A stretch of DNA of 64,000 nucleotides from Adineta ricciae. Its lineage: Eukaryota > Rotifera > Eurotatoria > Adinetida > Adinetidae. The position numbers and the translations under genes were made by a program. Below the pieces are notes generated by a model that saw only the letters and a list, made by a program, of their open reading frames with translations, was not told where the DNA came from and made no database searches. Shown here one piece after another: positions 5,297 to 61,154 of the stretch. Numbering within the stretch: position 1 is the first letter of the stretch; every line of letters starts with the position of its first letter. The DNA lies in assembly GCA_905250025.1 (NCBI GenBank), contig CAJNOJ010000077.1, forward strand, positions 310,001 to 374,000, given 5' to 3'.

Positions 5297-7297
5297 TTAA
5301 TCGACAACAAGATGATCGAAGTTCGACGCCGCGCCGCCTCCCATTCCGAACGTATATCGACCTGGGTCAAGGGAATTATGACCACCCATATAATCGTCAT
5401 CCATCTAAAACGAAAAACAATTTTCCAAAACTTTTCTACTTTGCCCTTCATAACATCTGCTTACGCCTGGATGATACGTTCGTTTGAATTCAAATAACTG
5501 TGTCACAACAAATTCCAGAATTTGTTTGGCACCACGTTGATCTGCGGGCATACGACTTGATATACCCGCGATGTTTCCGAATTCTTTAACAAACAGATCT
5601 AAATCGTGTTCCGAACATTTGTTCGTTAATTGATTTAAACGTGATGTTTCCGAAGCAAAATAATCTTCGAGATCAAACAATTCCAATGCAGGAGGCTCAC
5701 AGTCCCGAAATACTGGTGGGTAAACAGCTGGTTTCAACGCTGGCATTGGAACTTCGAATTGAGGTTTAATCAACGTCAACGGTTCATGTTTCATTTGCAA
5801 CTCATCATATGCGCTAGAGAATTCTTTAAATCACCAAATCGATATTCGTAATTCGAGCTTACCGGATCATTTTGGGTATGAGTGTCAAATCCAAATTGTA
5901 TAATTGTGTATCGAGCAATTTGCGCACATCTTTAGGTAATTCCTCAACGTCGTGTAAACTGCATTTTAACATTTCTGACATTGCTAGCAAATCGGGCGAT
6001 AGCATCTCATCAGATATCTAGGAGACAAATATATACTGTGTGATGGTAAACTATGCCGTCCGATCGCTTACATCAGGTACTTCAGCATCGATATCATTCA
6101 GACGAAACGATGGGTTTGTAAGAAATTCTATCACGACATCCTTGAAAAAAAACGCCAAATTATCTAGTCTGGAATTACCTATCAAACGACTTACTAATAA
6201 TCGTCGATTTTGTTCCTTTTCCAAGTAATTATCATGGAAAATCATTGTCGAACCACACACACATAGACGACCTCCATTCTACGAATGAAAAATGACTTTT
6301 TACCCATTCGATTTGGCTTTGCCTAACAAACTTTAGATGGCGATGTATAAAAAGCACAAATGGCTCGTTGAGTTGGTAGACAAGTTGTACCCGTCGACAG
6401 AACAGGTACAGATGGTGATTGAACATTCAAAGACGCTCCGAATGGATAAACAAATTCCAAAGAACTAGAAATAAATCCAGTAAACTTAGATATACGATTG
6501 AAGAATGCGGGTTTACCGTGCCACTTGAGCGCGTAGTGATTTGTCCACTACAACTGCATTTTGACTTTTTTTATTCTTTGGCGTTGGTGCAGTCGCAGCA
6601 ATTAGATGCGCATTTTCAGCTACAGCTCGATTTAGAACACCATCAAGAACCAATGCTTCTTTTGGATAAAAATATTTATAATACGCCGCCCGAATGACAC
6701 TGTCTACAAAAAGATTTCAATAGAAATCTAATTGAAATCAAAGAAAACTTACCATCGTTCACTTCAATACCATAGTTTTTTAGAAATGTATTCACATTTG
6801 TGTTCTGTCGAGACTCTCCACCTTCATTTAATGTCAATAAAATACTTCCACCATTGTCGATATATCGCTTCATCGAATCATACTGAAAGGACGATGCTGA
6901 GAATGATGTTTGTCGTCGAATTGAACTAACTTACTTCTTGAGGTGTAAATTTTTCTCTTGGATTAGCAATCATAAACACACGAAATGGTGTTAAACGCTC
7001 GGCAGTGATTTCTTCTCGATGACTACAAACGACGACCGGAAATACACACGAGAATATAGAAATGAAGCCAATTACTTTGACAATTTCCAATTTTTTAAAT
7101 GCATTTGCAACTTTTTAAAGCCACTTGTCAACGATGTTTGTTCATTTTTCGATTGATCGAAAAGGATATTATTGTTACCATTTCCTGCTTGTTTGCCCTG
7201 TCCACCTCGATCATCACCGTTCTAAAATATTTCAACAGCGAAACATTGACCTTTCAAAGTTATCTATGAAAAATAATCATACTTCTGTCGGAGCCAT
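5297..7297 (-). CDS. IFT52: intraflagellar transport protein 52 homolog
   Basis: IFT52 is a core subunit of the IFT-B complex that carries cargo into cilia, binding IFT46, IFT70 and IFT88. The first short exon reads MAPTE. A following exon encodes GFKKLQMHLKNWKLSK, matching the conserved early segment, and then a stretch ending MIANPREKFTPQE. Next comes the GIFT-type domain with YIDNGGSILLTLNEGGESR and VNTFLKNYGIEVND. The C-terminal exon (about 5405-5800) has LTLIKPQFEVPMPALKPAVY, then PPALELFDLEDYFASE and LTNKCSEHDLDLFV, the hallmark C-terminal region that contacts partners. A final exon adds a Gly-rich tail ending FDHLVVD. Introns are short. Cilia-rich animals such as rotifers need this gene. 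Some internal exon edges (6050-6700) are approximate. Confidence 0.92.
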
Positions 7298-10755: not shown

Positions 10756-11954
10756 ATGGAAAATGACAAGCAAATAACGGCGGATCCCGATGCAGAGAAT
10801 AAAGTAATTCCTTTCGTGTCATATTCATCATATTCTTGACGAAAATTCTATTGAAGATACTTCTTGAACCCTATGAATACATTCGTACCATCCCCGGCAA
10901 ACAAATTCGACCGAAACTAATCCAAGTAATTAACATAATTCTTTCCTGAATCTCATTTTCCTTCGTTTTTTCCAGGCTTTTAATCTCTGGTTACACATAC
11001 CTGATGAAAAGCTCACTGTCATCGAAGATCTTGTTGAGATGCTTCACAATGCATCGTTGCTCATCGACGATATTCAAGACAATTCCAAACTACGTAGAGG
11101 CGTACCTGTTGCTCATAACATCTATGGAATTCCGTTGACAATTAACGCTGCAAATTACATATATTTCCTCGCTATGCAGAAAGCTCTTGCATTGGAACAT
11201 GCTGATGTGACACAAATATTTGTCGGTATGTTATCGAATGCAGAGCGTTCATTTAAGAGAAATGATGCCGTGTTTCCTTTTAGACCAAATGTTAGAGTTG
11301 CACCATGGACAAGGTATGGAAATCTGGTGGCGTGACAACTTTGTTTCGCCATCCGAAGGGGAATATCGTCAAATGGTTATCAGGAAATGCGGTGGATTGT
11401 TCAATCTGGGTGTTCGTCTCATGCAATTATTTGCACCAACGGAAATACGCAGTGCTTACAATTTCAATAAACTATGTGAACTACTGTCATTGCTATTTCA
11501 AATACGTGATGATTATTGCAATTTAATATCAAAAGAATATACAAATAATAAATCGTATTGTGAAGATTTAACCGAAGGCAAGTTCTCATTTCCAATCTTA
11601 CATGCGGTTAACACACGTGAAACCGATACGCGCATTATTCACATTCTCAAGCAACGTACACAAGACATTGAATTGAAACGTTACTGTGTAAGACTGTTAC
11701 ATGAATTTGGTTCGTTGGAATATACGCGTCAAGTGTGTGATGATTTGGCTAAACAAATCTATGATGAAATTGATGTCTTAGGTGGAAATACCTATTTAGA
11801 AAGTATCATTCAAGGTTTAATGGAAATCTTTCGTCGTGATAATGAGGAAAATGGCAAAGATCTTAATCAGCATGAGCGTGTCGTATTCGATCACAGTATT
11901 AAAATGGAAAAACTTCGGAATCATAACAAAACGAATGGACAACAGCATACTTAA
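10756..11954 (+). CDS. GGPS1: geranylgeranyl diphosphate synthase
   Basis: This prenyltransferase condenses farnesyl-PP with isopentenyl-PP to give C20 geranylgeranyl-PP, used for protein prenylation. The first exon starts MENDKQITADPD. Later exons give ILLEPYEYIRTIPGKQIRPK, the substrate-binding region, then the first aspartate-rich motif in LLIDDIQDNSKLRRG (DDxxD). After a 59 bp intron (about 11226-11284) come LELHHGQGMEIWWRDN and the second aspartate motif FQIRDDYCNL. This short form, with a 4-residue gap after the first DDxxD, is the type III animal GGPPS pattern. About 40 residues beyond the conserved core (ending NKTNGQQHT) form a polar C-terminal extension. Neighbouring genes are unrelated in function. 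Confidence 0.94.
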
Positions 11955-12818: not shown

Positions 12819-14150
12819 TTATGGGCACTGCTTTCCATTTACCCAAGTCATCCAATCTCTGAGATTGGCTTGCTTGCATTGTTTGAAGATCTGAACGTCC
12901 TCCGCGTGACATTCGAGTTTGGGTTCGTACCACACGGAAAAGTTCATTCGATTGGCGGGGAATAGCCGAGATTTAGAGGCCATCCGACAAAGAGGACATA
13001 ATAGATTATTCCATCCTTGCGAATTATGTCGATCGATTTCATAAAATTCTCTCCATCGGAGATATTCGAGATATTTTTCGGTATGATTCATCAAATCGTA
13101 CAGATATTCCGCTAAATGCTTCGGCGTCTGGAATTTATTCACGTGTATATACGATTGATTTGGTGCTATGCGTTGATAGTCAGTGTCCGGAGCGCCGAGA
13201 ACAATCGGAACGAGGCGATGAACGTTGTCCGAAATGATATTCCAAAATTTCTCGGTGATATACGAATTGCAACGAGAATTTTCAAAAGATAGATAGAAAT
13301 AATATTCGTCGATGTTGACTTGGCATCGTCGATTCGGTACTTCGGGACATTGTTGACCGCATTTACCGTAAATACCCACAGGTATGTACTTTTTCAATTG
13401 TTCGACGTATTTTTCACGTTGAGAAAATGTGTTACAATTCGAAACAAACCATAGAACCGGCTTTTTCTTAGATTTCAAACTAATGCGATTCAAATTCTCT
13501 TCCCTTCGATTTATCGATGCCGTTCGGCGCTCAATAATCGGCGAGAAGACGGCATAAGGCGAATCGTATTTATATGAAATCGATTGATCGAAATAATTAT
13601 CTAACATTCGTGGAAAAAACGACGGATTTTGGTAATAAAAATTAATTGGACTTTCACCGGTAACGAACACCCAAGATTGGCGATTATCCTTCGACGGATT
13701 CGTTTCAGGCAATTGATACCGAGTGGCATCGTACAGATGAAACGCTACTATAGATGATTGATCTAATCGACTTCTATTGCGTGTAAATTGGCACAGATCT
13801 GTAGATGAACATGACACAAGTGCAGATGCATTGAAAAATAAAGGCTGATTCCAGTACGAATCGCGAAATAGATCCGTCCAAAGAAGTACAAGTGGATAAG
13901 ATTTCTGTTTTTGGTTTATAAGTGGTATGTAAGTAGATGAGTTTGTATGAAAAATATACTTTGGTGATAAGAGAACATCTAGTTGTTCGTGTTTATCTGG
14001 TTGACTGTAGACTTTGTATGCTATGTAAATGATGAAGGTGCACATAAAGATAATTAAGAAGCGACGAGTATACGATTTTTTATGCAAAGTAAAAACACAT
14101 GGTAGAATTAATGTGAGCAGACGAGTGTAGTTGGAGATACTGACATTCAT
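12819..14150 (-). CDS. alpha-1,3-fucosyltransferase, GT10 family
   Basis: GT10 enzymes move fucose from GDP-fucose to N-glycans or Lewis-type glycans in the Golgi lumen. The 443-residue protein is intronless. After a short cytosolic segment a type II membrane anchor (about residues 29-48, RRFLIIFMCTFIIYIAYKVY) is followed by a stem. The catalytic domain has PVLWFVSNCNTFSQREKYVE, then GKCGQQCP and the GT10 signature FYLSFENSRCNSYITEKFW with VPIVLGAPD. The Cys-rich end LLCPLCRM resembles the terminal CxxC of the family. Several N-glycosylation sequons are present. Acceptor specificity (core versus Lewis type) cannot be read. The lack of introns suggests a retrocopy or an expanded intronless lineage. 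Confidence 0.93.
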   Translation of the reverse strand: MNVSISNYTRLLTLILPCVFTLHKKSYTRRFLIIFMCTFIIYIAYKVYSQPDKHEQLDVLLSPKYIFHTNSSTYIPLINQKQKSYPLVLLWTDLFRDSYWNQPLFFNASALVSCSSTDLCQFTRNRSRLDQSSIVAFHLYDATRYQLPETNPSKDNRQSWVFVTGESPINFYYQNPSFFPRMLDNYFDQSISYKYDSPYAVFSPIIERRTASINRREENLNRISLKSKKKPVLWFVSNCNTFSQREKYVEQLKKYIPVGIYGKCGQQCPEVPNRRCQVNIDEYYFYLSFENSRCNSYITEKFWNIISDNVHRLVPIVLGAPDTDYQRIAPNQSYIHVNKFQTPKHLAEYLYDLMNHTEKYLEYLRWREFYEIDRHNSQGWNNLLCPLCRMASKSRLFPANRMNFSVWYEPKLECHAEDVQIFKQCKQANLRDWMTWVNGKQCP

Positions 14151-14738
14151 CGCTCAGCTATTTCTTTGATCCACCGGCGTTCTACAAAACAGTTAAATAA
14201 ATTTACAAAACTATTGTCTGCGACCTTTGCTCGAATGACAGCCCCAGGAAGTATCAAATTAAGAGGAGGAAGAATCAATATTTGATTATAGAATTACGTT
14301 TAGAGCAAGAGGACGGCATATTACTAACCCATTGAAATTGGCAACGATTGGTCAAGCAAACAGAATAGAATAGAGTTCATCGAAATATTTCTGTTGCATT
14401 GTTAATTTTCAAACAGTCATTAGAGAATGCTTTCCGAGAACGACCTTTTACTCACATCATTGTTTGATGATTTTTTATCAGCCTTTGTGCTCGTGGAGTA
14501 CCATCGAGTTGATCAGTGTTTGTCCGAAGGAGACCATTATTAGCTGGAAGCATTTCCGTCGCCAAATCATTCATCTGAAACGCGCGTTAAATATACTCGA
14601 CTTCTCTGATTCCGTAAAACAACAATATCCTTAGCGATCGATACTTCTCTACTATTCAGTGATTATGCGTCTAGCAAAACAGTGCAATGGACTTTCAAAT
14701 TTGTTTATTTTTCATAACAAAAAACAACAAAACACGTA
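14151..14738. other. intergenic / possible 5' UTR exons of the fucosyltransferase
   Basis: On the minus strand, 14574 down to about 14457 opens with ATG and ends at a GTGAGT donor. A TTTTGTAG acceptor lies just upstream of the fucosyltransferase start. Joined, they would give a 48-codon peptide beginning MNDLATEMLPANN. It may be a non-coding leader, an upstream ORF or a tiny gene. I recognise no homolog. Confidence 0.3.
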
Positions 14739-38698: not shown

Positions 38699-39579
38699 AT
38701 GCATCGAAGCACGGTTTCTAATCGTCGAACTGCCACTAGTTTCACAGTTCTAATGGCTGTATCAAAATTTAAAGCGCTTATATTTCATAAAAATATGAAA
38801 TCTGGTGGCCAATATAAGCGACAATTGAAATTAAGCGGTCGATCTGTTTGTCCAATATCACCAGGTAAATACCAAAGACGTCTTGATCATTATCAGTGAA
38901 CGTTCATTCGATTTTTCATCTAGAAATCTTCCGTTTATCCGAATTAGAAGTTCTCGATTTATCCACCGCACATATCTCCGGCTTAGACTTTCGTCTTATT
39001 AATCTTCCACGTGAAATTGGTTGTTTATACCATTTACGCACTCTTAATCTCGATGTCAATGCATTAACATCCCTACCGAACGAGATTGGCGAGCTCAAGT
39101 ATCTCGAATGTCTAACTGTTTCGTGCAATAAGTTACAAACACTACCGTTCTCGTTCCGAAATTTAATACGATTGGAAAGTTTACATTTAGCATCGAATTG
39201 TTTTCAAGCCTTTCCATTGGTCATATGTCATATGGAAAGATTGAAATTCCTCGATTTGAGTTGTAATCAAATCGAAATTTTGCCATCCTCGTTAATCAAA
39301 TTGAAATCTTTGAAAACATTGCTATTGTTCAAAAACAAACTGAAACAATGGCCCGAACTGCTTTGTAATCTCACGCAGCTACAAACCCTATGGCTAGGAA
39401 AGAATCAGTTGCACGAATTACCGAATCATTTCGGACAATTGACACATCTAGACTGGACAATCAATCCATTGTCTACAAATATCGATGAGAATCCTTTAAC
39501 TTATCCACCTTTACTCACCTGCAAACTTGGTATCGAAGCTATACGCGACTTTTTACAAGATAAGTTGCACCATGACTAA
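38699..39579 (+). CDS. leucine-rich repeat protein, SHOC2-like repeats
   Basis: Exon 1 (38699-38864) and exon 2 (38924-39579), joined across a 59 bp intron, give 273 residues. A basic N-terminal part (with KSGGQYKRQLKLSGRSVCP) is followed by about seven leucine-rich repeats of the 23-residue type, for example LPREIGCLYHLRTLNLDVNA, LTSLPNEIGELKYLECLTVS and LPSSLIKLKSLKTLLLF. The end PLLTCKLGIEAIRDFLQD fits the C-terminal cap seen in cytosolic SHOC2/LRRC-type proteins. No signal peptide or membrane helix is seen. Such proteins act as protein-binding scaffolds. The partner is unknown, and I cannot assign an orthologue. Confidence 0.85.
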
Positions 39580-46903: not shown

Positions 46904-48843
46904 TTATCTCGAAGAGGATGAGTCTTTTGTCACCACTGAATTATGCTTATTTTGATAACAGCTATTATTATTTCTATCATTCTTTCGTATAGCATTGGGC
47001 AGTGGCGAAGAAACTTTGACAAATGGTGCCATGAAAAGTAACGCGAGTAACATCAATATCAACCAAATCAGTCCGTAATAAAACAAACGTATACCAGTGA
47101 TGAATATATTCATTGTCTTCTTCGCATTCTGCTTACGCCTTTGTGCCACAGCGTCATAATAGATTTCATTCAATTGATCACTAGCAGAATCCCATGAATG
47201 TTTCAATGCTTGTTCTTGTGCCTTTATCGACAAATACTTGCGATCTTTCATAGCACAACGGACAGCTTCTTCAGCTGAATCTAGATCATCTGGTTTCCAT
47301 AAATATCCGTGTTCACCATTGACAAAGAATTCTTTCAATTGTCCACCTTCTGCTGCGACCACTGGCGTTCCACTCGCCATTGCTTCTAAGTAAACTTGTC
47401 CGAATGTTTCACTAACTGATGCGTACAGAAAATAATCAGCACTTGCATACGCGCTTGCTAGCTCCTCTCCGCCGAGATAACCAAAGAAATATACACGGTC
47501 TCTGGGAAATACGGGTTCTAAGGTTTGTCGATATGGACCATCACCAATAATACAGAGAAATGTTTGATTTGGTATGCGATCTAATACAAGTGATAGAAAT
47601 TCGAAATTCTTCTCCGGAGATATTCGACCGACGCAGAGAAATAGCGTTATCGAATCCATTTGTTGTTCAGTAAAGTTATTATATGTTCCAAACATACGGT
47701 AGCGCATCAATTGTGAACGTCGATTACGGTTGAATAGTTCAGAATCGACACCCGTTTTCCAAACAATAACTGGCCGAGGTATGCCTGTGTTTTCCATAAA
47801 TTCAGCAAAATCTTTGCTAACTGTTAAATTGGCTGACGAATAGATTAAGTGTTTCAAACGAATGAATTGGTACAGAGATCGAGTCATAGTCACAGCGTAC
47901 GAACGCATGTAAGTTAAAAGATAGAAGTCGATATTGGTATGTGATGACCACACGATCGGGATATTGAGAGATTTAGCAATGGCACCACAAAACATGGCTG
48001 CTGGTGTTTGTTCAACAATATGGATGACATCAGGTGAAAATCGACGAATCGCTGAGTATATAGTTGGCTAAAATCAAAATTCAACATATTCGAACTACAT
48101 ATATGAAACGTTTTATCTTAAAAACAAATATTATTCATTCTCTGTCATCTCAATATATTCTACACTCGATGACCGTTAAGATGTTTGTGTTCTTTTTTTT
48201 ATATTCTTAATGCACTTTCGTACTCAGGTTAAGAGAATCTATGCAAAGCGCTAGGTGCTAAAAAAGCATTCGTTTTTCTTTGTCTGCTCAGCCTTCGATC
48301 GTTGGTATGAAACCACAATATGACTAGTTTCACGCATGAATGCGCGGACTTTTACATGTGCCAAGCCTATTTTATTTGTGCAACTTACATTAGGAAAAAG
48401 AAACGGACAAGCACAGTCGATTTTGTTGGTAAATTCAGTTGATGGCAATGAAGAGAATGTAACGTAGGTCTCAAGTATATCATTTCCTTCGACCCATGTC
48501 AAAGCATTCTAAATAGATACAATGAATCACAATAACAAGGTTTAATCGAGCTTAAGTTATGCAAATAATACAGTCGATAAATAGTTTTCAATTTTTTTCT
48601 CTCTCTTTCTATCCGACTTACTTTGCAACCAGTAATTACGTGAATATGATGTTTTCGGTTAGCTAAACGTCGAATGATTTCTTTGAATCGACGTGTTATG
48701 CCACTGGTGAACGACGGGAAACTTTCGGCAAATAGAAGAATCCGTAATGGTTCGTCATGGTGAAAACCATTTGTGTAAGCTATGCAAAAAGAAAAGTAAA
48801 CAGTTACGAAGAATATTCCGTAGTGAAAACAAATGGTTCTCAT
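46904..48843 (-). CDS. GT4 glycosyltransferase, SQD2-like
   Basis: The three exons start MRTICFHYGIFFVTVYFSFC (signal-like), then PLRILLFAESFPSFTSGITR and IHVITGCK. A second exon (about 48370-48490) is less conserved, and the third has DVIHIVEQTPAAMFCG, WSSHTNIDFYLLTYMRSYAV, WKTGVDSELFNRNRRSQLMR, LCVGRISPEKNFEFLSLVLD, FLCIIGDGPYRQTLEPVF, ELASAYASADYFLYASVSET and FGQVYLEAMASGTPVVAAEG, the GT-B EX7E-type active region. This resembles plant and cyanobacterial sulfoquinovosyl transferase SQD2 more than animal GT4s. A membrane helix (YYGLIWLILMLLALLFMAPF) lies near the C-terminus. SQD2 makes the sulfolipid sulfoquinovosyldiacylglycerol. Whether an animal protein keeps that activity is unknown. One exon join near 48070-48270 is approximate. 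Confidence 0.88.
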
Positions 48844-51319: not shown

Positions 51320-54300
51320 ATGGATTCATATACGAGTGACAATGAAGACCATGATCTTCGTTCTTTATCTGAACGTATTTTACCTTTAACATCTGCATCT
51401 TTTACGAATAATAATATATCTCCTCGAAATAATAGCAATAATCCTAATCGTATTCGTTCACTAAAACCACAAAAAAGTATTTCATTCGATAATCGAACTT
51501 ATCGTGAAGAAATGTCCTTTCCAACAACAGCAAGCACAGGTGATATTATACAGTTAAGCGATGGTACGCGAAAAAAATACAACGGTTCATCATGGCGTCG
51601 AATGTGTTCCAAACCAAATTGTACTTATTATACACAGAGTCAAGGCTTATGCAAACCACATTTAGCGGCATCGAAGAAGCGCAAACTATCCAAGAGTGAC
51701 AATGATTTACCCGTGATTGAGGCAGCGCTTTCGACTCAAAAAGAACCTAAGAAAGGTGATATTATTGTTTTACCGAATGGTGTTCGCAAAAAATATGACG
51801 GACGACAATATAGACGTGTTTGTGCTAAACCTTCATGTACTGTTGTTGTACATGGTAGTCTAGAATATCAAAATGGGTTTGTATTGATGAATTTTCGACT
51901 ATTGCTCTCTATTTCTAAGTATGAATTGTAGTTTATGCCCTCATCATTATAATGAATATCGTTTCAATACCAGTAGTCAAACAATACCTCAAACTGAACA
52001 AGAATTATTCAACCAAAGCTCGACTCCACCGAAGCAGTCTGTGATGCTATCATCATCATCACGCAAACGTCATCGCCCCAATTCTCCATTATCCGGTAAT
52101 TTATCACAAGTCCCAATATATGATAATCACAGTAAAAGCTCGGTACCCAAACCGAATCGTCGTCTATCGATTGCTGTTATTCCACCATCAGTCGACATTG
52201 AACATCCGAACAAAGGTGATATTATTGAAATGGAAAATGGTTCAAGAAAGAAGTTCGATGGTGTTGTCTGGCGGACGATTTGCTCAATTCCAGGCTGTTT
52301 AATAGCTGCACAACGAAACGAACTATGTCGGAAACATTTCATTAAACTTAATGGCAAACCGAATACAGCACCGACTATGGCCACGAATATGAACACTTCC
52401 GGCGCAAGGCTCACATCCAGAGTTGATAGCAGTTCGTCCCTGGATGATAGATCAGGTAACCGGTTAACTACACAAATCTGTAATACTTCACACACTGTTT
52501 CGTCTAGAAGCGCTCCACAATGTCAAGTTTTCGAAGGATCTTGTCACTGGTGTCAGAGATGAATCGATAGATTACGATGGTAGCCAACATGAAGAGCCCA
52601 ATACCGATAATATATCTAACAGTTACAGTATTTCTGGTTTGTTTCTTTCTTCCAAATTGAATTTGAATTTTTCACTGTTGCTTTTCAGACGAAGAAACAC
52701 ATATTAAACATGAACAGTCGTCACCAATTGAGGATGACAATCTAGGCACACAGATCGATCATACATTAATTAATGCACTTTCAGCAAGCAGAGAAAAATT
52801 TCCAACAAGTGTGGCATTCTTTTCCTCGTTTAAACTTAATACGTTTTTTCCCTCTAAATTTAGCTTTTCTAAAGAAATGGCTCCGGGAACATCGCAGTCA
52901 TCCGTATCCAAGTAATCATGAAAAACTTCAATTAGCTAAACAGTCCTCGATCACATATGATCAAGTGACAACTTGGTTTAATAACGCTCGAGCTATCCTC
53001 CGACGTCGACAAGCAAAACTACGACATCCGTTGAATACTGCTGACGATAACGATGAGGACGACGACGGTATCGATGAACATCTCACTTATGACAATCGAA
53101 AACGTGAGTCTATTTCTCCAATGTCATTCAATTCAATCGTTCGATTTTTCAGGTCACCGATCAATGCCTTTATTCAACGGTGTCAGCTGTCGTTCGATAG
53201 GTATACAATGCAATCCGTCAACAGTCGAACAGACAACTATAACATCAACGAAAATCTCAGTTATGACCGATGATGAATTAGCATCCGATCGAACAATTCA
53301 AATCTTGACGCCATCCAATCGAGTATTAGCAACAGATAATGTAAAAGGAAACAGTAGTCATCATTTGCTATTAAATGGAATTAAAACCGAAGATGAAGAT
53401 GAACGAGAAAAAGATATTATCATTACAACAACCTGTCTAGATGATGATCAAATGGTAGGCATGAATCTGTTACTCTACACCCTAGAGTCTGCTTTGTAGC
53501 AGAATTTAATTATAAACAGGTTGAGTGGCTAGAAACTAATTTCTACATTAATTATCATGAATAAGATAGGAACCCATTATTCGAGAACATCTATGGAGTA
53601 CACTTGTTATCAACGTAAATAGGCGACTACAAGAATTGCGTGCCTGTTGAGTTAATACCAGTGTGAGAATGATAAGAAAAAGATTATTTTTTCGTGTATA
53701 AAAAAAATTCCAGAGACAAGGAATGTGATAACAGCAGGAAGAACTTTGTCAGGTTTATGGCTTCATTTATGTTTAGGTACGCGTTAAAGATTTCTGCTCA
53801 AGATTTCAAATTGAATTGTGTAATGTTGTTGATGAAACGACGACACACTTAATAACTGATGAAGAAGAAGGTGAAACACTCGTCTGTCCTTTATCGAAAA
53901 AAGTTATTCAATCAGTTGCTCGCCATATGTACATTGTCACATATCGATGGATTGATGCTTGTCTAGAAGCCAACAAGATTGTTAACGAAAAACCGTTCGA
54001 AATTCAAGGTGATCTCACGCTTTCGTCCGATCATAATGGTTTGTCGATGCTCGTGTTTTGCTACGAGAAGAAAAGGTGATTTTCGTCTGTTTTGTAGGCA
54101 TGCAACGAAGTCGACAGAGTATTTTACCAGATAGTTTACCGAAAAATCTTTTATTAGAAAATTTTTCTATTATGTTAAAATGTAATGGATGTCAAGAAAT
54201 GATGAATAATGAAGAATTAATTGAATTAGTTCAATTATCTGGTGCTAAACATACAACTGATTCTCATTTTTCTCGCTTACAACCAGGTATTACTCGTATT

Positions 54301-54514
54301 GTTCTGTGTGAAAAAGAATATCTTATGAATCGACGTGAAATGTATGAAAAATGTATTCAATCCGGTATTCATTTTCTCACTCCGGAATGGTAAATGTGAA
54401 CAGCGACAGACAATACAAGATTTTCAACTCTTCTCGTTTCTTTCTTCTAGGTTTCTGGAATCACTTGTTCAATATCGTATTCAACCATTTCAAGAATATC
54501 AAATATCGCCATAA
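51320..54514 (+). CDS. multidomain nuclear protein: 3x Cys/His repeat, TALE-like homeodomain, tandem BRCT
   Basis: A chain of phase-compatible exons starting MDSYTSDNEDHD encodes one protein. Three related modules follow the pattern GDIIxLxxGxRKKYxGxxxRR, then Cx3-4Cx6-10LCx2H, at about 51538-51670, 51751-51945 and 52216-52345. They probably bind zinc. A TALE-type homeodomain follows (FLKKWLREHRSHPYPSNHEK, then LAKQSSITYDQVTTWFNNAR). An acidic, Ser/Thr-rich linker leads to a BRCA1-type BRCT pair: DIIITTTCLDDDQM joins across an intron to VRVKDFCSRFQIELC and DETTTHLIT, then MYIVTYRWIDACLEANKIVN and FEIQGDLTL. The second repeat has LLLENFSIMLKCNGC, ELIELVQLSGAK, and HFLTPEWFLESLVQ. BRCT pairs bind phosphopeptides in DNA repair. 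The fusion is read from splice sites; the 300 bp intron at 53456-53774 is the weakest link. Confidence 0.8.

Positions 54515-56980: not shown

Positions 56981-61154
<4,174 letters not shown>

Follow-up and report, generated by a model that had tools for sequence, protein, structure and literature searches.

A bdelloid rotifer gene combining Cys/His modules, a TALE homeodomain and a BRCA1-type BRCT pair in one predicted protein

Most of what is known of BRCA1-type BRCT domains concerns damage signalling. BRCA1 itself acts together with a RING partner, ubiquitin and phospho-marks, and 53BP1 carries a BRCT pair with an LC8-type motif upstream. Bdelloid rotifers are microscopic animals that survive drying and are known for repairing shattered genomes. 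Here we analyse a gene of the bdelloid Adineta ricciae in which a BRCT pair is joined to a homeodomain (HD). The gene lies at 51320-54514 on the + strand of the window, the 64,000-nucleotide stretch at positions 310001-374000 of contig C77 in the 130.5-Mb A. ricciae assembly. A splice model built from the raw sequence gave nine exons, eight GT-AG introns and a product of 829 aa that matches the annotated A. ricciae protein P0001 at 100% identity from end to end. Three Cys/His modules come first in this protein, followed by a TALE homeodomain and a tandem BRCT pair. Each of the three module types lies on the + strand where an earlier, sequence-only reading of the window had placed them. The domain architecture is real and conserved, and it belongs to a set of BRCA1-type BRCT proteins that has expanded in bdelloids.

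Profile searches of the spliced protein, which the sequence-only reading had proposed as a check, placed both expected Pfam families above their curated cut-offs. Homeobox_KN matched P0001 at 1.1e-13 (51.2 bits vs a cut-off of 24), and BRCT matched in two stretches at 1.2e-11. The best solved-structure matches of the homeodomain were Meis2 and Meis1 (1.7e-10); the Meis2 alignment was ungapped, with the longer loop of the KN type. The profile of the gene's own family (A) matched BRCA1 best among solved structures (2.8e-20 to 6.3e-17, over ~200 residues), followed by Microcephalin at 1.2e-3. BARD1 was not matched by the A profile at E<=0.01, which disfavours it as the source of the A-type pair. 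The TALE-like homeodomain and the BRCA1-type pair were thus both correctly recognised in the earlier reading. The features of the gene, with exon boundaries from the splice model, are as follows.

51320..54514, +, whole gene, nine exons, 829 aa, stop included (splice model; P0001 identity; intact allele-like copy on contig C8)
51320..51876, +, exon 1: start, first Cys/His module (Zn1) and most of the second (Zn2); phase 0 to 2
51932..52455, +, exon 2: end of Zn2 and the third module (Zn3); phase 2 to 1
52508..52636, +, exon 3: linker; symmetric phase 1-1
52689..52808, +, exon 4: linker, N-terminal arm and start of the homeodomain; symmetric phase 1-1
52864..53103, +, exon 5: remainder of the homeodomain; symmetric phase 1-1
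53153..53454, +, exon 6: linker, RSIGIQCNP motif and first BRCT strand; phase 1 to 0
53455..53776, +, intron 6: 322 nt, phase 0, at the position of the human BRCA1 intron between codons 1662 and 1663
53777..54038, +, exon 7: remainder of BRCT1
54098..54389, +, exon 8: inter-BRCT linker and most of BRCT2
54451..54514, +, exon 9: end of BRCT2 and stop
51539..51667, +, Zn1, aa 74-116 (conservation; profile on the C8 copy)
51752..51950, +, Zn2, aa 145-192, split by intron 1; first half missing in the A. ricciae paralog A2 (conservation)
52212..52349, +, Zn3, aa 280-325 (conservation)
52778..53024, +, TALE (KN) homeodomain, aa 434-497, split by intron 4 (Pfam; PDB Meis2 at 1.7e-10; alignments)
53191..53217, +, RSIGIQCNP, a conserved island in a fast linker (12 relatives)
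53410..54038, +, BRCT1, aa 610-712 (sequence comparison with BRCA1)
54098..54514, +, BRCT2, aa 713-829 (sequence comparison with BRCA1)

The proposal that these modules belong to one gene was borne out by the identity to P0001 and by comparison with related loci. The first BRCT strand is encoded by the same exon as the linker after the homeodomain, as had been proposed, and the alignment to human BRCA1 runs ungapped across the exon 6/7 junction. The C8 copy is intact, with 8/8 introns at the same places and with exon length differences of +15 and -3 nt that keep the frame. A second HD-BRCT type, E, was found on contigs C133, C201 and C23. In E2 (C23, L018, 3100-3417, minus strand), a single 106-codon open frame runs from HD helices 2-3 via a linker to KRICIAYSCLNSEQI; a phase-0 intron comes next, at the intron 6 site. 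KRICIAYSCLNSEQI is presumed to be BRCT strand 1, judged by eye and by the intron position; being very short, it was not reported by the profile search there. The HD loop of E2 offers several candidate GT-AG pairs, one of which, of phase 1, restores HPYPTE, and E1 has several possible donors for the join of its HD to strand 1. The sequence-only reading had named two findings that would speak for separate genes, neither of which was observed. One was a new start between the HD and BRCT1, where 13 family sequences have no universal Met (best columns 9/13, 11/13 and 11/13). The other was separate genes in relatives: among 53 proteins compared, which included all 48 new matches of a BRCT-led profile search, 34 matched a BRCT reference and none was nearest to the A type.

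It is very improbable that the annotated gene is an artificial join, or two adjacent genes, with a Cys/His-HD gene next to a distinct BRCT gene. Annotation joins do occur: P0011 merges A2, despite A2's own stop, with a downstream BRCT neighbour. In addition, three Rotaria models and one metagenome model stop in intron 6, and a fifth model, also from Rotaria, goes out of frame there. Many gene joins by annotation in helminths are described in a 2026 paper (PMC12964723), in which a term search did not find BRCT, homeobox, homeodomain or rotifer. Against separate genes stand the single-ORF exon of E2, the BRCA1 alignment that crosses from exon 6 to exon 7 without a gap, the occurrence of this junction in both the C8 copy and A2, and the lack of a universal internal Met; on these grounds we rejected the separate-gene reading. 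Exons 3, 4 and 5 are symmetric, which suggests that they could move in or out of the gene with the frame unbroken.

The position of intron 6 provides a further link to BRCA1. Human BRCA1 intron 16 follows c.4986 and its retention alters Met1663, according to a published report (PMC3519833), and the human intron is therefore of phase 0 and lies between codons 1662 and 1663. These codons pair with M624|V625, exactly the intron 6 site. An AG acceptor is present exactly at this site in 17 of 21 further A. ricciae BRCT-pair starts, the exceptions being both starts in L024, one in L025 and one in L026; donors were checked for the window gene (A1), its C8 copy, A2, E1 and E2. By our estimate, one intron site in common with human BRCA1 could arise by chance with a likelihood of a few percent, and the match therefore counts as support and falls short of proof. 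The intron at this site measures 322 nt in A1, 302 nt in the C8 copy, 445 nt (phase 0) in A2 and 56-57 nt in the E-type genes, and the seven remaining introns of A1 measure 49-61 nt. In both A1 copies and A2, intron 6 is ~5-9x the length of the gene's other introns.

The A sequences were compared at the positions of BRCA1 residues S1655, G1656, R1699, K1702, M1775 and L1839, of which S1655, G1656 and K1702 bind phosphate. At the phosphate site, all 13 A sequences have Thr at the equivalent of S1655, placed through an ungapped extension of the BRCA1 alignment, and Lys at K1702. Leu is found at L1839 in 13/13, and M1775 is Met in 11 and Val in 2. The sequence-only reading had also likened the linker between the two repeats to that of BRCA1. 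The linker reads SDHNGMQRSRQS, and its H-x-G...R-R part does resemble human NHQGPKRARES; the rest does not. Conservation follows the modules: in up to 12 relatives, identity to P0001 was 63-90% for BRCT1, 69-96% for BRCT2, 56-95% for the HD, 41-98% for Zn1 (truncated in two relatives), 45-94% for Zn2, 67-100% for Zn3 and 7-81% for the tail and linkers.

The homeodomain retains W48, N51 and R53 in 19/19 A-type rows. Position 50 is Asn in most rows and position 54 is Ala or Ser; position 55 is Lys in the E HDs and in the Didymodactylos protein P0063. By identity, the HD is nearest to the Iroquois/Mohawk group. The A-type HDs are 45-48% identical to two Iroquois HDs of the A. ricciae genome, E2 is 52-54% identical to these, and the A-type HDs are 43-48% identical to a provisional Mohawk sequence. 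In a tree built from a short alignment that includes three provisional sequences, the A and E HDs grouped at 94/93 outside the other TALE rows, on a branch that was not starred; the HD of P0063 was too divergent to place.

The three Cys/His modules have the spacing C-x4-C-x9-C-x2-H (Zn1 and Zn3) or C-x4-C-x14-C-x2-H (Zn2), and a GDII..NG.RKK.DG stretch precedes each of them. Zf_WRKY19 (PF24906) matched P0001 at 1.1e-5 with 25.5 bits, just below the curated cut-off of 27, and the database's precomputed Pfam annotation lists this family for P0001 and P0002. Zn2 is degenerate in some A2 copies. Within the A. ricciae genome, the three-module profile matched a Capicua-like ORF (L037) at 8.9e-15, whose HMG box matches PDB capicua at 6.5e-24. 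It also matched a shorter HMG-box ORF, L035, to which L036 is nearly the same by eye. The Cys/His module, as judged from these matches, is common to several genes of this genome. It is also seen in small ORFs (L033, L034 and L038-L040) and merits a family model of its own.

A 13-residue island around RSIGIQCNP is 69-100% identical in 12 relatives, vs 7-68% in the preceding linker. GIQ and its flanks resemble LC8-binding sequences. Three C-family proteins (P0040, P0042 and P0043) have three to five TQT/GIQ-like sites before their BRCT pair, an arrangement that resembles a multivalent LC8 partner. The AlphaFold model of the protein has a mean pLDDT of 44.3, with HD helices at 444-495 and strand-rich Cys/His modules whose ten-residue blocks are mostly at 61-77.

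To assess selection, we compared A1 with its C8 copy, which is taken for an allele. The Nei-Gojobori dN/dS was 0.099 over 828 codons. The Zn modules (141 codons) had 0 nonsynonymous and 11 synonymous changes, the HD (64 codons) 0 and 7, the BRCTs 2 and 14, and the linkers 22.5 and 31.5. This shows purifying selection between the two copies. The paralog A2 on contig C3 is probably an ohnolog; its GT-AG junctions match 6/8 introns, and three differ by one residue from P0011. A2 has its own stop after EYEISP, and the next BRCT gene, D, lies ~0.7-1 kb downstream on the same strand (L010, C3:55000-64500, 5584-6700). The annotated P0011 joins A2 to D across this stop codon.

The sequence-only reading had suggested looking for this architecture in other rotifers, and it was found in Adineta, Rotaria and Didymodactylos. 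Among 20 protein-database matches, 14 had both Homeobox_KN and BRCT, four had an HD and no BRCT, one had BRCT and no HD, and one (P0019) had neither; the named matches were from A. ricciae, A. vaga, A. steineri, Rotaria spp. and Didymodactylos carnosus. A profile search, which scored the best 8000 candidates (those with most common words), gave 44 matches. Four of these were named and non-bdelloid (an Apostichopus BRCT protein, two Esox PKNOX1-type entries and a Sparganum Irx), and HD and BRCT occurred together in 0/4; some others came from metagenomes with no named source. The BRCT-led profile search gave 62 matches and one additional HD-BRCT protein, P0063 from Didymodactylos. Viral contigs gave 55 pattern matches and 0 relatives. 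Among named sources, HD and BRCT were found in one protein only in bdelloid rotifers in these searches, which depend on common 5-residue words, so that distant relatives could escape. The short metagenome and Logan entries P0022-P0024, P0034 and P0037 end before the BRCTs and are uninformative either way.

The BRCT pair belongs to a larger family in A. ricciae. We counted 22 related BRCT-pair loci, window included and alleles apart: A1 on C77 and C8, A2 and D on C3, E on C133, C201 and C23, B on C161, and 14 others. These counts are lower bounds, with 20 stretches taken from genome matches, 18 of them as BRCT pairs; there are fewer genes than loci, because some loci look like allele pairs. An HD is present in 6/22 loci (C77, C8, C3, C133, C201 and C23), and Cys/His modules were found near those on C77, C8, C3, C9, C23 (580 kb) and C161, and weakly on C166. 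BRCT-pair loci in which no HD was detected lie on C2, C5, C9, C23, C133, C161, C166, C245 and C264 (L011-L017, L019 and L022-L026), and a few of these carry one Cys/His module. In the database, P0048-P0088, many from Rotaria sp. Silwood2, include numerous incomplete copies of family B (Zn-BRCT), suggestive of multiplication or of pseudogenes.

Families B, C and D (one protein each) also match BRCA1 first, at 1.9e-12, 3.3e-7 and 3.6e-10. In a tree with one outgroup set, A (97/94), B (100/98), C (96/93) and D (99/98) each formed one group, the four bdelloid families stood apart from BRCA1/BARD1 (98/96), and A and D joined at 87/91. When a half-length sea-cucumber row was left out, A-D again each formed one group (A at 64/95), BRCA1 stood beside C at 44/43, and A+D was not in the best tree (AU p 0.20); A+BRCA1 was not rejected (p 0.32) and A+B was nearly rejected (p 0.063). 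In a wider tree the HD label requires three changes, so that a single HD fusion with later losses is not established over several independent fusions. A common HD-BRCT founder is neither demonstrated nor rejected by the trees.

No RING was found within 20 kb upstream of the 22 loci among the matches listed, although a divergent or unscored one could escape; one listed match lies on C3, ~8 kb downstream of D. These RING searches, which scored 60/60 candidates for PF14835, 150/392 for PF00097 and 122/122 for human BRCA1 1-107, found no RING-BRCT gene in the A. ricciae assembly. A tentative and rather unlikely extension is that RING-type BRCA1, and perhaps BARD1, has been replaced in bdelloids by a family of BRCA1-type BRCT pairs whose founder was joined to an HD, and whose HD and Cys/His members would bring phosphopeptide reading to DNA. 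If true, the response to damage or at chromatin would have been rewired in animals that live through extensive fragmentation of their DNA and for which the absence of BRCA2 has been reported.

The sequence-only reading had proposed a factor that is targeted to DNA and acts in repair or on chromatin; a part in break repair is an inference here as well. We consider it reasonably probable that the protein is a DNA-anchored, phosphopeptide-reading adaptor of the BRCA1 class in which a built-in DNA-binding module takes the place of the RING. The protein would be nuclear and would contact DNA through its homeodomain and the basic sequences on either side, and the LC8-like motif might hold it as a dimer. 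Its BRCT pair would bind phosphoserine or phosphothreonine peptides via the retained Ser/Thr1655 and Lys1702 equivalents, and phosphorylated partners would thereby be recruited to chromatin, as BRCA1-class adaptors do.

Several observations weigh against this adaptor. HD position 55 is Ile in 19/19 A-type rows, not the base-contacting Arg55 of TALE proteins, and the A2 HD of A. ricciae additionally has Leu at 49. DNA binding by the HD may therefore be weak or altered, and classical TALE (TGAC-type) targets are doubtful because of this Ile. In the BRCT pair, G1656 is Cys and R1699 is Leu in 13/13 A sequences; because of these changes, the exact pSer-x-x-Phe specificity of BRCA1 may not be retained. 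No ten-residue block of the BRCT part exceeds pLDDT 60, and since the AlphaFold model is unreliable there, the BRCT fold is assigned from sequence alone. Finally, P0008, P0009 and P0010 (Rotaria; P0010 represents 24 sequences) and P0021 (metagenome) enter intron 6 and stop, P0017 (Rotaria) continues there into unrelated sequence, and none of the five has BRCTs. These models may reflect annotation or a real short form. The gene might make two products, the complete protein and an HD protein that ends in the long intron 6 and lacks the BRCTs, and both the length of this intron in A1, the C8 copy and A2 and the four models that stop in it fit such a form. We consider this unlikely: AATAAG at 53560 was the sole match in intron 6 among the four poly(A) signal variants looked for, the E-type introns at this site are merely 56-57 nt, and gene predictors also generate such stops.

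The main competitor to the adaptor, possible and clearly the less probable of the two, is a transcription regulator with no special repair role, in which the HD and Cys/His modules would set the targets and the BRCT pair would dock cofactors in a phosphorylation-dependent manner. Two of the three module types otherwise occur in transcription-factor genes, namely the TALE HD and the Cys/His module of the Capicua-like HMG-box ORF, but BRCTs of this type are generally associated with damage signalling. The HD could also lack specific DNA binding and act as a protein-binding or nonspecific basic module, with any DNA targeting left to the Cys/His modules. The invariant Ile in place of Arg55 fits this idea, which nevertheless seems improbable given that N51 and R53 are retained in 19/19 A-type HDs and that A1 and the C8 copy differ by 0 amino acids in the HD.

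Published surveys are consistent with the claim that no protein with this order had been described: none with Cys/His, HD and BRCT in this order was found in the portion of the open-access literature searched. A repair-gene survey of A. vaga found BRCA2, Nbs1 and Rad52 missing (PMC6264785), and its main text has 0 mentions of BRCA1, BARD1, homeobox or homeodomain. BRCT has 0 mentions in the accessible text of a study of oyster homeobox genes that drew on those of A. vaga (PMC5322547) and 0 in the main text of an A. vaga radiation study (PMC10809525). A spaceflight study names A. vaga genes as BRCA1 (FUN_025314) and BARD1 (FUN_018514), which are not mapped to the families described here, and reports 15 A. 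vaga homeodomain genes raised in flight only (PMC12220480).

Elsewhere in the window we observed a polyprenyl synthase (11211-11951, +), a fucosyltransferase (12822-14153, -), leucine-rich repeats (38887-39576, +) and a group 1/family 4 glycosyltransferase (46907-48067, -). Downstream of the gene, exons at 56981-58589 (+) resemble a SIK-like protein kinase by eye; three small ORFs from this region had no Pfam match at 1e-3.

Together, these results describe three known modules combined into a new protein, in effect a BRCA1-type reader with its own presumed DNA-binding domains that has multiplied in bdelloids, and they give a concrete gene set for testing how break repair is organised in these animals. 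Compared with TALE factors, the gene has an attached BRCT pair, and the MEIS/PKNOX N-terminal Pfam domain was not found in P0001. It shares the Cys/His module with the Capicua-like ORF of the same genome and differs from Capicua in that no HMG box was found in P0001 by Pfam. The resemblance to 53BP1, an analogy only, consists of a BRCT pair with an upstream candidate LC8-like motif; the Tudor domain of 53BP1 was not found in P0001. BARD1 is approached by the related D family, which has a tandem BRCT with a GPRRSR linker and matches BARD1 at 9.4e-8; the A profile has no such match, and RING and ankyrin families were not found in P0001 (Pfam, E<=0.1). In contrast to BRCA1, the 829-aa protein has no RING by the same search and has an HD and Cys/His modules instead. 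Its BRCT pair nevertheless matches BRCA1 best, retains the Ser/Thr1655 and Lys1702 equivalents and is interrupted by an intron at the same place and in the same phase.

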